DNA from: Olsenella porci
GTDB lineage: Bacteria; Actinomycetota; Coriobacteriia; Coriobacteriales; Atopobiaceae
NCBI RefSeq assembly: GCF_009695875.1
Contig: NZ_VUNC01000005.1
Coordinates: 62,001 to 126,000 of the forward strand
Reading direction: 5' to 3'
Length of the DNA: 64,000 nt
The notes beneath the pieces are model-generated. The model had not been told where the DNA came from, ran no database searches, and saw only the letters and a program-made list of their open reading frames with translations. A program made the translations under genes and the position numbers. This document shows, one piece after another, positions 2,853-30,253 of the stretch (positions within the stretch are counted from its first letter, which is position 1; every line of letters begins with the position of its first letter).

Positions 2853-4013
2853 CTACATCGCCGCGCGGAAGATGTTGACCACGTCGTCCTTGTCGAGCGG
2901 GACGTAGGCGTTGATGGTGCGGCGGGCGGCCTTCTCGGCCATGACCTCAAAGTGCTCGTCGCTGGTGATGCCCACCGCGCGGAGGTTGGCAGGGAGCCCC
3001 ATGGTCTTGAAGAAGAACTCGGAGGTCTTGGCGATGGCGTCGTGCGCGATGGACCAGTCGTCGCTGCCCACGAGCCCCCACACGTTGCGGCCGTAGGTGG
3101 CAAAGGCGGAGACGGTCTTGACGCTGAGGACGTAGTCCATCCAGACCGGCGTGAGGATGGCCAGTCCCTCGCCGTGGGTGATGTCGTAGAAGGCCGAGAG
3201 CTCGTGCTCCATGGGGTGCACGCACCAGGGGTCGGCGCTGCCCTCGGAGACCAGGCCGTTGATCGCATGGCTGGCCGCCCACATGAGGTTGGCGCGCGCC
3301 TCGTAGTTGTCAGGCTCGGCAAGGGCGATGGGCCCGTTCTTGATCATCGTGCGCAGCAGGGCCTCGCAGAAGCGCAGCTGCACGTCGGCACCCTGCTCCT
3401 TGGTGAAGTAGTTCTCGAAGGTGTGGCTCATCATGTCGGCCGTGCCAGCCGCGGTCTGCCTGCGCGACACCGAGAAGGTGTAGGTGGGGTCGAGGACGGA
3501 CATCGTGGGCTTAAGGCACTCGGCCGCCGTACCCCACTTCTCGTTCTTGGTCATGTCAGAGATGACCGCAGCGGAGTCCATCTCGGAGCCCGTGGCCGAG
3601 AGCGTGAGCACCGAGTAGATGGGGAGGGCGTCCTTGATCTTGGTGCGGTCGAGTACCAGGTCCCAGGCATCGCCGTCGTACTTGGCACCAGCTGCCACGA
3701 CCTTGGCGCAGTCGATGGTGGAGCCACCGCCGATGGCAAGGACCATGTCGATCCCCTCGGACTTGCACATCTCGACCCCGCGGCGGACCGTCTGGATGCG
3801 CGGGTTGGGCTCCACGCCGGAAAGCTCGCTCACCTGCACGCCGGCCTCCCCCAGAATGCGCAGGGCCTCGTCGTAGATGCCGTTGCGCTTGATGGAGCCA
3901 CCGCCGTACACCAGGAGCGCCTTGGTGCCGCTCTGCCTGAGCTCGGACAGGTGCGAGATCTGGCCCTTGCCAAAGTGGATGGTGGTGGGAATGGAGAACG
4001 TGAAGTTGCGCAT
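2853..4013 (-). CDS. Iron-containing alcohol dehydrogenase (BdhA/YqhD type)
   Basis: 386 residues, full length for the family. It should reduce aldehydes to alcohols (butanal and similar) with NAD(P)H in the cytoplasm, disposing of reducing power during fermentation. The N-terminus has the typical opening with HFGKG, then GGGSTIDCAK near residue 98 for the nucleotide. Metal-site residues are in GTADMMSHTFENYF (about 206-219) and in the HPMEHELSAFYDITHGEGLAI region (about 282-302), which provides the His ligands. The start is the ATG at 4013, with AAGGGGAC upstream. It is transcribed alone; the flanking genes on the same strand are separated by gaps of over 180 bases. Exact substrate cannot be told from sequence. 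Confidence 0.93.
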   Translation of the reverse strand: MRNFTFSIPTTIHFGKGQISHLSELRQSGTKALLVYGGGSIKRNGIYDEALRILGEAGVQVSELSGVEPNPRIQTVRRGVEMCKSEGIDMVLAIGGGSTIDCAKVVAAGAKYDGDAWDLVLDRTKIKDALPIYSVLTLSATGSEMDSAAVISDMTKNEKWGTAAECLKPTMSVLDPTYTFSVSRRQTAAGTADMMSHTFENYFTKEQGADVQLRFCEALLRTMIKNGPIALAEPDNYEARANLMWAASHAINGLVSEGSADPWCVHPMEHELSAFYDITHGEGLAILTPVWMDYVLSVKTVSAFATYGRNVWGLVGSDDWSIAHDAIAKTSEFFFKTMGLPANLRAVGITSDEHFEVMAEKAARRTINAYVPLDKDDVVNIFRAAM

Positions 4014-26720: not shown

Positions 26721-26750
26721 TTGCATCTGCACTTGGGGGCGACGTATAGT
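26721..26750 (+). promoter_or_regulatory. Promoter of the Trp-leader/ECF operon
   Basis: TTGCAT (-35, 26721-26726), an 18-base spacer and TATAGT (-10, 26745-26750). Transcription would start near 26757, about 50 bases before the leader ORF. Confidence 0.7.
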
Positions 26751-26807
26751 TCCACACAACCGACACACGCCGCACACAGCGGCCGGGTTTTGAGAGGAGC
26801 GCCACAG

Positions 26808-26885
26808 ATGAACTGCATCGCAGCCAACGCATGCACGTCCAACAACTGGTGGTGGCGCGATTCGAACCCGGTCGGTCGATCGTGA
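26808..26885 (+). CDS. Tryptophan-rich leader peptide
   Basis: 25 codons plus stop. The ATG at 26808 follows a good ribosome binding site, GAGAGGAG at 26792-26799. Codons 14-16 are three consecutive TGG (26847-26855), in the context NNWWWRDSNP. Three adjacent Trp codons are very rare by chance and are the mark of trp attenuation leader peptides. A strong intrinsic terminator begins 30 bases after the stop, and an ECF transporter operon follows. Expected mechanism: when charged tRNA-Trp is scarce the ribosome stalls at the TGG run and terminator formation is prevented. The peptide itself probably has no other role. Confidence 0.85.
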   Translation: MNCIAANACTSNNWWWRDSNPVGRS

Positions 26886-26947
26886 GTCTCTTGCGCCATA
26901 CATCCTGCGTACAGAGGGGGCTCCGGTTTGGCCGGGGCCCCCTTTTT
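26853..26947 (+). promoter_or_regulatory. Transcription attenuator (terminator 26916-26947) of the ECF operon
   Basis: Terminator: GGGGGCTCCGG (26916-26926) pairs with CCGGGGCCCCC (26932-26942) over 11 bases with one G-U, loop TTTGG, then TTTTTGTG. Two alternative pairings can be drawn by hand. GTGGCGCGA (26852-26860, covering the last Trp codon) pairs with TTGCGCCAT (26891-26899). CGAACCCGG (26863-26871) pairs with CCGGTTTG (26923-26930, inside the terminator stem) with one bulge. The second would act as antiterminator. Confidence 0.8.
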
Positions 26948-27024
26948 GTGTGAGCGCAACCATCTGACCGCCACGAGAGCATGCAAAGCAACCAACACGA
27001 AGGCACGAGCGAAAGGAACCCATC

Positions 27025-27591
27025 ATGTCCCAGAACAACCAGCAGGCACGCACCGTCACCTCCGCAGACCACGGCAAGCTCGACGTGAGGGCGCTCGTCC
27101 TCCTCGCCGTCCTCCTGGCGGCGGGCTTCATCCTCAACTTCACCGTGGGCAAGGCAATCTCGGGAGCCACGGGCGGCCTCATCAGCCCGGAGTTCATCAT
27201 CTCGGCCTTCTGCCTGACCATCCTGGTCGTGCGCCCCAACGTGGGCCAGGCCCTGGTGATCGGCCTCATCTCCGCCGCCGTGATCCAGATCACCACCACC
27301 TCCCCGTTCATCGACTTCGCCGCCGAGGGAGTCGCCGCCATGCTCATGGCCGTCATCGTGAACTCCCTCATGGGCAGCAAGGCAGGCAAGGTCGTGCCCC
27401 TAGTGGGAACCTTCGTGACCACCGTGGTCTCGGGCATCATCTTCATGCTCATCAAGATCGCCATGATCGGCGCCGCCCAGCAGCTCGTGGCCGCCATGCT
27501 CCCCGTGGTCGTGCTCACCGGCGTGTTCAACGCCATCCTGGTGCAGGCGCTCTACCTCCCCATCCGCAAGGCGCTCAAGATCAACGACTAG
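27025..27591 (+). CDS. ECF transporter S component, probably for tryptophan
   Basis: 188 residues, with AAAGGAA before the ATG. About five or six hydrophobic segments start at residue 24 (VRALVLLAVLLAAGFILNFTVG). The loop GQALVIGLISAAVIQITTTSPF resembles the TrpP-like group of small S components. S components bind the substrate in the membrane and dock on the shared energy-coupling module. Here the module genes follow directly: the fused ATPase and then EcfT. Tryptophan as substrate is inferred mainly from the WWW attenuator, with the family resemblance as support. Confidence 0.8.
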   Translation: MSQNNQQARTVTSADHGKLDVRALVLLAVLLAAGFILNFTVGKAISGATGGLISPEFIISAFCLTILVVRPNVGQALVIGLISAAVIQITTTSPFIDFAAEGVAAMLMAVIVNSLMGSKAGKVVPLVGTFVTTVVSGIIFMLIKIAMIGAAQQLVAAMLPVVVLTGVFNAILVQALYLPIRKALKIND

Positions 27592-27652: not shown

Positions 27653-27688
27653 GAATGGGCCGTTCGGCACGAGCCGGGCGGCCCATTC
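27653..27688 (+). promoter_or_regulatory. Perfect 10-bp hairpin between S component and ATPase genes
   Basis: GAATGGGCCG (27653-27662) pairs with CGGCCCATTC (27679-27688) around a 16-base loop. It is not followed by a T-run, so it is more likely an mRNA-stability or processing structure that sets unequal levels of the ECF subunits. Confidence 0.5.
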
Positions 27689-27726
27689 TCTCAACCAAGG
27701 CACGTTCGAGCCATCGAGGGGTTTCA

Positions 27727-29514
27727 ATGCCATCAAGCGCAGACTCACCAATCATCGAGCTCCGGGACGTCTCGTTCTCGTACGAGGGCGGCCCCGACCA
27801 GGACGAGGAGATGGCCCTGAGCCACGTCTCGCTCAAGGTGGGAAGGGGCGAGTTCGTGGGGGTGATCGGCCCCTCCGGCGCGGGGAAGTCGACTCTTGCC
27901 TCGGTCATGTCGGGCGCCATCCCCCATCACTATCGCGGCGCGCTCTACGGCGCGACGATCGTGGACGGCAACGATACCTGCGAGGTCACCCTCACCGACA
28001 TCTCGCGCGTGGTCGGTAGCGTGCTGCAGGACATCGACACGCAGATGGTCGCCTCGGTCGTCGAGGACGAGATGCTCTTTGGCCTCGAGAACTTTGGCGT
28101 GCCGCACGACCAGATTGAGGCGCGGCTGGAGCAGACACTCAGGACCGTGGGGATAGAGGACCTCCGCGACCGCGAGATCGCAACCCTCTCGGGCGGACAG
28201 AAGCAGAAGGTGGCCATCGCCGCCATCCTCGCCCTTCAGCCACGCGTCCTGCTGCTGGACGAGCCCACTGCGGCCCTTGACCCCGCGTCGTCCACGCTCG
28301 TGTTCGACACCCTGCGCAAGGTCAACCGCGAGTCGGGCATCACGGTCGTGGTCATCGAGCAGAAGGTGGCGCTTCTCTCCCGCTACTGCGACCGCCTGCT
28401 AGTGATGAGCCACGGCTCGCTCGCTCTGGACGGCACGCCGCGCCAGGTGTTCGCCCACGCGGAGGAGCTGCGCAAGATTGGCGTGGACAGCCCCCGCGTC
28501 GCGCGCGTGTACAACAGCCTGGCACGTCGCGGCCTGGTGAGGCGCGGCGACCCCTGTCTCACGGTCGACGAGGCCGAGCGGCTCATCGCCGGACTCGTTG
28601 GCCCACATCCCGCGCAGGTAGCGGAGGTGCCCGAGGCGCGCGCCGGCTCGCGCCACGTTCCGCCGCAGCGTCCGCACTCCCAGGGCGCCCAACCCGTCGT
28701 GGAGCTGAGCAAGGTCTGCTTTGGCTACCCCAACGGCGGGGCCACGGTGGACGACCTCGACATGTGCGTGTACCCCGGGGAGGTCGTGGGCATCGTCGGG
28801 CAGAACGGGGCCGGAAAGACCACGCTCACCAAGCTGCTCAACGGGCTGCTGCGTCCCTCGTCCGGCACCGTGAGGATCGCCGGCATCGACACCGCCGACG
28901 TCCCGACCAGCAAGATCGCGGCGCACTGCTCCACCCTGTTCCAGAACCCGGACAACCAGCTGTGCAAGGACACGGTGCTGGACGAGATCGCCTTTGGCCT
29001 GGAGCTTCAGGGCGTGGACGCCGACGAGGCGCGCAGGCGCGCGCGGGTGGTCATCGACCGCTTCGGCCTTCCCGCGGACGAAGCGCCCTTCTCGCTCTCG
29101 CGCGGGCAGCGCCAGATGGTCGCCCTTGCCTCGGTGGTGGTCATGGAGCCCGACGTGGTGCTTCTCGACGAGCCCACGAGCGGCCTCGACTACCGCGAGT
29201 GCATGACCGTCATGGAGACTGTCACGCAGATGGCGGAGCGCGGCTGCGCGGTGATCATGGTGTGCCACGACATGGAGGTCGTCTCCGACTTCGCGGAGAG
29301 GATCGTGGTCATGGCCGACGGCCGCATCCTCGGACGGGGGGAGACCACGCAGATGTTCTCGGACGCCGACCTGATGCGGCGGGCCTACGTGGAGGCGCCC
29401 CAGGTGATCGAGCTCTCGCAGGCGCTGGCGCGCGACGTCTCGCCGGAGTTCGCGGGAATCAGCCAGGTCTCTGGAATCGTCGACCTCACGGAGGGGATGG
29501 TCACCCGTGCTTAA
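27727..29514 (+). CDS. ECF transporter fused ATPase (two nucleotide-binding domains)
   Basis: 595 residues from the ATG at 27727, with GAGGGG upstream. The first ATPase domain (about 10-270) has GPSGAGKST, LSGGQKQKVAIA and LLLDEPTAALDP. The second (about 330-570) has GQNGAGKTT, the variant signature LSRGQRQMVALAS and VVLLDEPTSGLDY. It is thus EcfA1 and EcfA2 in one chain, powering uptake by the S and T components. The linker near 310-345 is Pro/Arg-rich. It overlaps ecfT by 8 bases. The LSRGQ change in the second signature keeps the Gly-Gln pair and should be functional. Confidence 0.93.
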   Translation: MPSSADSPIIELRDVSFSYEGGPDQDEEMALSHVSLKVGRGEFVGVIGPSGAGKSTLASVMSGAIPHHYRGALYGATIVDGNDTCEVTLTDISRVVGSVLQDIDTQMVASVVEDEMLFGLENFGVPHDQIEARLEQTLRTVGIEDLRDREIATLSGGQKQKVAIAAILALQPRVLLLDEPTAALDPASSTLVFDTLRKVNRESGITVVVIEQKVALLSRYCDRLLVMSHGSLALDGTPRQVFAHAEELRKIGVDSPRVARVYNSLARRGLVRRGDPCLTVDEAERLIAGLVGPHPAQVAEVPEARAGSRHVPPQRPHSQGAQPVVELSKVCFGYPNGGATVDDLDMCVYPGEVVGIVGQNGAGKTTLTKLLNGLLRPSSGTVRIAGIDTADVPTSKIAAHCSTLFQNPDNQLCKDTVLDEIAFGLELQGVDADEARRRARVVIDRFGLPADEAPFSLSRGQRQMVALASVVVMEPDVVLLDEPTSGLDYRECMTVMETVTQMAERGCAVIMVCHDMEVVSDFAERIVVMADGRILGRGETTQMFSDADLMRRAYVEAPQVIELSQALARDVSPEFAGISQVSGIVDLTEGMVTRA

Positions 29515-30253
29515 CGCCATCGACTACGTTCCCGGCAACACGCTGCTCCACCGGCTCAACCCGGTGACCAAGCTCGCCTTGGCGGCCGCCATTATCATCG
29601 CGACCTTCCTGGCCAACACCTACGCGATGCTGCTGGGGCTGCTCGCCCTGACCTTCGCCCTGGGCGTCTACGCGCACTCCGCCTCGCGCCTCGTCTCGCT
29701 GCTCAAGCTGCTGGTGCCGCTCGCCGTGGTCATGCTCCTGCTGCAGACCGCCTTCGTGCGCGGCGGCAGCGTCGTCTTTGCCTGGATGACCACCGAGGGG
29801 CTCACGACCGGCAGCAAGGCCTGCCTGCGCCTGCTGGGCGTGGCGCTGCCCCTCATCCTCATGCTCACGGTGACCAAGCTGGTGGACCTCTCCAACGCCT
29901 GCGTCGAGGTGCTCCACATCCCCTATCGCTACGCCTTCACCTTCACCACCGCGCTGCGCTTCGTGCCCGTGTTCTCCCAGCAGATGAACGCCATCATGGA
30001 GGCCCAGTGCGCCCGTGGCGTTGAGTACGACACCAAGAACCCCCTGCGCAAGCTCCAGCTGATGCTCCCACTGTGTGTGCCCCTGCTGGTGAGCTCCGTG
30101 GGCAAGACCGACGCCACGGCCCTTGCCGCCGAGGAGCGCGGCTTCTACCTGCGCACGCGCCAGAGCTCCTACAAGCGCTACCCCCTCACGGGCCGCGACT
30201 ACGTCGTGCTCGCCGCCTGCGTCGCCCTCGTGGTCCTAGGCGTTCTGGCATAG
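29507..30253 (+). CDS. ECF transporter transmembrane component (EcfT)
   Basis: 248 residues from a GTG at 29507 that overlaps the ATPase stop by 8 bases. It has four or five hydrophobic segments. Two short cytoplasmic motifs couple to the ATPases: AQCARGVEY (about 165-173) and AAEERGFYL (about 206-214), the variant of the usual Ala-Arg-Gly motifs in EcfT. Together with the two preceding genes it forms a dedicated (group I-like) ECF transporter under the Trp attenuator. Confidence 0.9.
   Translation: MLNAIDYVPGNTLLHRLNPVTKLALAAAIIIATFLANTYAMLLGLLALTFALGVYAHSASRLVSLLKLLVPLAVVMLLLQTAFVRGGSVVFAWMTTEGLTTGSKACLRLLGVALPLILMLTVTKLVDLSNACVEVLHIPYRYAFTFTTALRFVPVFSQQMNAIMEAQCARGVEYDTKNPLRKLQLMLPLCVPLLVSSVGKTDATALAAEERGFYLRTRQSSYKRYPLTGRDYVVLAACVALVVLGVLA

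Follow-up and report, generated by a model that had tools for sequence, protein, structure and literature searches.

Leader ORF in front of an ECF transporter operon

Does the short open reading frame (ORF) with three tandem tryptophan codons, found in front of an ECF transporter operon in the 64-kb stretch of DNA analysed here (the window), control that operon, and what would the transporter then import? Our comparative and folding analyses make it very probable that the leader works by ribosome-mediated tryptophan attenuation and that the ECF operon under its control encodes a dedicated importer of tryptophan. The promoter, ribosome binding site (RBS), 25-codon leader ORF and TGG run that the initial annotation had described are all present by direct reading (Table 1). 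The leader ORF starts with the ATG at 26808, ends with the TGA at 26883-26885 and encodes the 25-codon peptide MNCIAANACTSNNWWWRDSNPVGRS. It is the only short RBS-preceded ORF with an in-frame Trp-Trp-Trp (WWW) run on either strand of the window, and the chance expectation for such an ORF is 0.0 per 64 kb (first-order Markov model, none found in 60 simulated windows). Most relatives have a TATAGT-type -10 element about as far from the leader ATG, with a mean best score of 7.7 versus 6.1 in shuffled sequences.

Table 1. Features of the leader and the ECF operon (window coordinates)
Feature	Position	Strand	Basis and remarks
Promoter TTGCAT-18-TATAGT	26721-26750	+	Direct reading; TTGCAT 26721-26726, TATAGT 26745-26750
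RBS GAGAGGAG and leader ORF	26791-26885	+	Direct reading; leader kept in 63/65 orthologous loci
Three tandem TGG codons (sensor)	26847-26855	+	Direct reading, alignment of 40 leaders
Segment 1 UGGCGCGA	26853-26860	+	Directly after the Trp codons; pairs with segment 2
Antiterminator 5' side CGGUCGAUCG (last leader codons) and UGAGUCUC; segment 2 UUGCGCCA (26891-26898)	26873-26898	+	
Antiterminator 3' side GGGGCUCCGGUUUGGCCG	26917-26934	+	Terminator 5' arm, loop and start of 3' arm
Intrinsic terminator with T5	26915-26947	+	Direct reading, folding; GC-rich stem, T5 ending at 26947
ECF S component, TrpP-like, 188 aa	27025-27591	+	Pfam, AlphaFold
Fused EcfA-EcfA' ATPase	27655-29514	+	TIGR04520 and TIGR04521 above cut-off
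EcfT	29507-30253	+	Pfam CbiQ family

Conservation of the leader

S-gene orthologues were gathered from genome contigs, 65 loci were read and the leader was sought within 500 nt upstream of the S gene. An RBS-preceded ORF with a Trp run was found at 63 loci (62 with WWW and one, L061, with WW), and the two loci without a Trp-run leader were a contig fragment (L068) and a sequence from Eggerthellaceae (L074). Most of the more divergent orthologues, from Atopobiaceae and Coriobacteriaceae with S proteins 42-60% identical, also carry the leader; among them, one leader has WAW (L142) and L136 has no recognisable leader. The search for the TGG run and the terminator upstream of orthologues, which the initial annotation had suggested as a possible refutation, found both kept, and the refutation failed.

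Pattern searches of the window's own genome for further TGG-run leaders were too unspecific, and a covariance model of the element was used instead. Its one match in this genome was the leader locus itself (103.6 bits). Strong matches were found throughout the order and only weak ones in the rest of the phylum. Six weak matches (L214, L216, L217, L218, L219 and L224) were rejected; they have no WWW leader and resemble unrelated terminators. No Rfam family, including the Trp leader RF00513, matched in the window at gathering thresholds, and a plasmid similarity search gave no match.

A short ORF next to a terminator might also be a chance arrangement or the end of another transcript, and a simple consensus scan of the window for promoters and terminators detected neither element, the promoter scoring below the consensus threshold. 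The gene upstream of the leader, however, is on the opposite strand, and both possibilities are refuted by the comparative data, in which leader, spacing, antiterminator and terminator are conserved across families. We give this explanation practically no weight.

In the window, the spacer between RBS and ATG (26800-26807) is complementary to the Trp-codon region at 26851-26858 (GCGCCAC:GUGGCGC). The RBS spacer and Trp codons of Collinsella are also complementary, with another sequence (GCCACCA:UGGUGGC). This pairing could tune translation of the leader.

Terminator, 1:2 helix and antiterminator

For the structure analysis, 40 distinct leaders were aligned. RNAalifold gave 13 consensus pairs, nine of them in the terminator, and two-sided changes were seen in seven of the 13. 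The terminator that had been noticed before the S gene is present, and its stem covaries among relatives.

The initial annotation had drawn two pairings that would disrupt the terminator. The first (26852-26860 with 26891-26899) is conserved in slightly shorter form, as a helix between segment 1 and segment 2, which lies behind the stop codon (26853-26860 with 26891-26898, the 1:2 helix). It covaries, with two-sided changes in five of eight pairs and a covariation score of 0.250 compared with at most 0.175 for slid versions. Helices of cognate segments are also more stable than those of segments exchanged among species (0 of 5000 permutations, relatedness not being controlled). The second (26863-26871 with 26923-26930) lacks conservation, and its place is taken by a conserved antiterminator between about 26873-26890 and 26917-26934. 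In this structure, CGGUCRA in the codons just before the stop pairs with UUGACCG, which lies in the loop and 3' arm of the terminator, and UGAGUC pairs with the 5' arm.

The five outer antiterminator pairs are standard in all 40 distinct leaders, and pairing over the antiterminator reaches 93.5% in the aligned leaders versus at most 55% for slid versions. When the segment was isolated, it folded as the antiterminator with P of about 1 in 38 of 40 leaders, the other two being wrongly anchored segments. The leader bases GGUC are nearly invariant in the alignment. Covariation of the outer antiterminator is weak in the main family because most outer pairs hardly vary. Divergent WWW leaders, from trpB2-like genes and some Eggerthellaceae, have CGGAUUA:UAAUCCG, CGGGUUA:UAAUCCG or CGGAUCA:UGAUCCG at the equivalent place, and the first two are compensatory changes. 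Comparative support for the predicted antiterminator comes from its conservation and, as stronger evidence than the covariation, from these divergent leaders. The leader peptide ends with Gly-Arg or Gly-Gln, probably because the constraint is on the RNA and not on the peptide.

Predicted switching

To represent the ribosome in folding, the RNA was masked to 13 nt past the A site. With a ribosome stalled at the first or third Trp codon, the computed fold leaves the antiterminator free and its inner part has formed by the time the 3' end reaches 26923. In these stalled states the inner antiterminator has P of 1.0 up to a 3' end of 26938 and persists to 26938-26940, whereas the outer helix disappears once the 3' end has passed 26934. 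When the ribosome sits on the stop codon, formation of the antiterminator is blocked and the terminator appears at a 3' end of 26934-26936. For the window sequence, the completed terminator is the favoured structure at equilibrium whatever the ribosome state, and therefore read-through would have to be kinetic, as in other attenuators. By sequence and computation the locus has a tandem-Trp ORF, an intrinsic terminator and an antiterminator exclusive of it, as expected for an attenuator.

In the mechanism that we propose, a ribosome translates the leader at the same time as RNA polymerase is transcribing it. When tryptophan is available, the ribosome would pass WWW, reach the stop codon and cover CGGUCGA...UGAGUC, so that the terminator forms and transcription ends without reaching the S gene. 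Under a shortage of charged tRNA-Trp, the ribosome would stall on UGGUGGUGG, mask segment 1 and leave CGGUCGAUCGUGAGUCUC free to pair with the terminator 5' arm, the loop and the first bases of the 3' arm. This is the antiterminator, and once it has formed the S, AA' and T genes would be transcribed and tryptophan imported. Ribosome stalling and read-through are what we infer from the sequences.

In untranslated RNA, the computed alternatives are pairing of the Trp-codon region with the RBS spacer or with segment 2. If the Trp-codon region pairs with the spacer (GCGCCAC:GUGGCGC), segment 2 would be free, the default would be read-through, and a ribosome at the stop codon would be needed for termination; this proposal departs from the attenuator described above solely in the untranslated state. 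The two main families both have a spacer that is complementary to the Trp region (mean -12.7 kcal/mol versus -8.4 for shuffled spacers). The ensemble of the full leader lacks the 1:2 helix, and in it the inner antiterminator forms before the terminator is complete. On the other hand, a fold begun 20 nt before the leader ATG contains the 1:2 helix, which is also better supported by covariation. A read-through default is therefore rather unlikely in our judgement, though it deserves serious consideration.

The ECF transporter and its S component

EcfAA' was found near the S gene in 63 of 66 loci and EcfT in 62 of 66. At the sequence level, the compared loci establish the leader, the terminator, the 1:2 helix, the antiterminator, their linkage to the operon and the association with Trp genes. 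The placement of a Trp leader-peptide attenuator before an ECF transporter, as the initial annotation had proposed, is supported by this comparative evidence.

The AlphaFold model of the S protein has a pLDDT of 87, and its best PDB matches are the ECF S components ThiT, PanT and RibU (probability 0.9-1.0, with weak E-values). The AXXXA motif in helix 1, a motif that contacts EcfT (PMC11109136), is represented by A28 and A32, which are invariant in the family. By its predicted fold, this motif and the adjoining EcfA, A' and T genes, the protein is an ECF S component. It matches Pfam PF17099 (TrpP) over its full length with an E-value of 5e-4 and 20.2 bits, below the cut-off of 27.2, and 30 of 38 members of the S family match TrpP (E up to 0.1, best 7.9e-13). 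By this weak homology the protein is a distant relative of TrpP. The S component had been called poorly typed; with its weak TrpP homology it is not wholly untyped.

A second S gene, about 50% identical to the first, directly follows it in a number of relatives (G072, G112, G136, G154, G187, G205, G238, G279, G291 and others). The second protein possibly takes another aromatic substrate.

T-boxes on orthologous operons and the transported substrate

T-box sequences were found at 26 of the 31 S loci of Eggerthellaceae, and in each one whose specifier region was located by a simple pattern the specifier reads UGG. Scores for the Rfam T-box (RF00230) were obtained for four of these loci. WWW was found upstream in four Eggerthellaceae S loci, the start codons of three being uncertain. 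The T-boxes on relatives and on the own trp operon appear only with an E-value threshold and are missed at the Rfam gathering score. No T-box was detected in the window at gathering thresholds, which can miss this T-box group, and none was seen by eye in the leader region.

In the window's own genome, a T-box of 73.7 bits (below the Rfam cut-off) with a UGG specifier precedes trpEGDCFBA (contig C1, L147, 4693-4948). With a T-box on trpEGDCFBA and a WWW leader on the ECF operon, this genome would therefore have two tRNA-Trp sensors, one for synthesis and one for uptake.

The assignment of tryptophan to the S component, made earlier from the leader, is supported by the similarity to TrpP, by the UGG T-boxes on orthologous operons and on the genome's own trp operon, and by WWW leaders that precede trpB2-like genes and an NSS transporter. 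From regulation and homology together, we infer that tryptophan is the transported substrate. The leader might instead control the operon as proposed while the cargo is a tryptophan-related compound such as indole, kynurenine or another aromatic. The specificity of the S component is not readable from this sequence, the TrpP match is weak, and several relatives have a second adjoining S gene (about 50% identical) whose specificity may differ. Against this, two unrelated tRNA-Trp sensors, the WWW leader and the UGG T-box, are found on orthologous operons, and the S family is similar to TrpP. A related compound is thus an improbable cargo compared with tryptophan itself.

Comparison with known systems

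Trp attenuators of Corynebacterium and Streptomyces have been studied experimentally in C. glutamicum and S. venezuelae and by comparison (PMC1262725), and their targets are biosynthesis operons and trpS. Like them, the element described here has an actinobacterial leader ORF, two to three tandem UGG codons, a GC-rich terminator with a T run and a competing antiterminator. It differs in its target, an ECF uptake operon, and in its conserved antiterminator, which involves the final codons of the leader and extends through the terminator loop to the 3' arm. The Trp T-box (RF00230) of the TrpP-like ECF operons in Eggerthellaceae resembles it in acting on an orthologous operon with tRNA-Trp charging as the expected signal, but is an unrelated RNA that reads the tRNA directly, without a leader peptide.

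On his genes, a transporter gene among them, histidine leader peptides and T-boxes replace each other (PMC9413887, PMC2965389). There, too, genes of one kind have a leader peptide in place of a T-box, and the targets include transport genes; that case concerns histidine, Firmicutes and an ABC transporter. Since actinobacterial Trp attenuators and histidine leader/T-box swaps are known, the mechanism proposed here is of a known kind. Our literature search, most subscription journals being outside it, found no description of this attenuator, its lineage, its ECF target, its antiterminator geometry or an interchange of Trp leader and T-box. Classical ribosome-mediated Trp attenuation acting on uptake, a known mechanism with a new lineage and target, is well supported by the comparative data, and the swap of leader and T-box on orthologous operons is apparent from the loci compared.

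In B. subtilis, trpP is under TRAP control. The S component here is by Pfam a distant homologue of Bacillus TrpP (PF17099). The attenuator suggests a concrete substrate for a poorly typed S component of common gut and oral Actinobacteria (Olsenella and Collinsella relatives). Trp attenuation would be extended from biosynthesis to uptake, and a natural experiment is provided by orthologous operons that some families place under a leader peptide and another mostly under a T-box. Tryptophan uptake by the Collinsella group may bear on tryptophan availability in the gut, which is speculation.

Other WWW leaders and a post-terminator helix

WWW leaders with the same GGUCGA and terminator layout are found before a gene for a 445-aa NSS/SNF sodium symporter (L205, second match; L206-L209; L222; Eggerthellaceae genus g61). 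The symporter is probably a tryptophan transporter. WWW leaders with their own antiterminator sequence precede stand-alone genes for TrpB2-like tryptophan synthase beta (L211, L212, L213, L215 and L220), and these enzymes match TIGR01415 above cut-off.

We tentatively suggest, as a possibility that we do not yet favour, a new attenuator family in Coriobacteriia, in which WWW leaders with a shared antiterminator architecture would govern Trp uptake (ECF, NSS) and trpB2-like genes and interchange with UGG T-boxes on orthologous operons, and in which a long helix beyond the terminator in Coriobacteriaceae would add a second control step after read-through.

No complement of the leader was found beyond the terminator in the window's own family. 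Most Coriobacteriaceae (for example L034 at 3926-4000, L057, L060 and L062) have a stretch such as CCCGAUCGCGUUCGCAUCACGCGCC between the terminator and the S gene. About 20 bases of it are complementary to the part of the leader that directly follows the Trp codons; the pairing energy is mostly -31 to -40 kcal/mol, z goes as low as -7, and compensatory changes are seen (GUGAUG/CAUCAC, GUGGUG/CACCAC).
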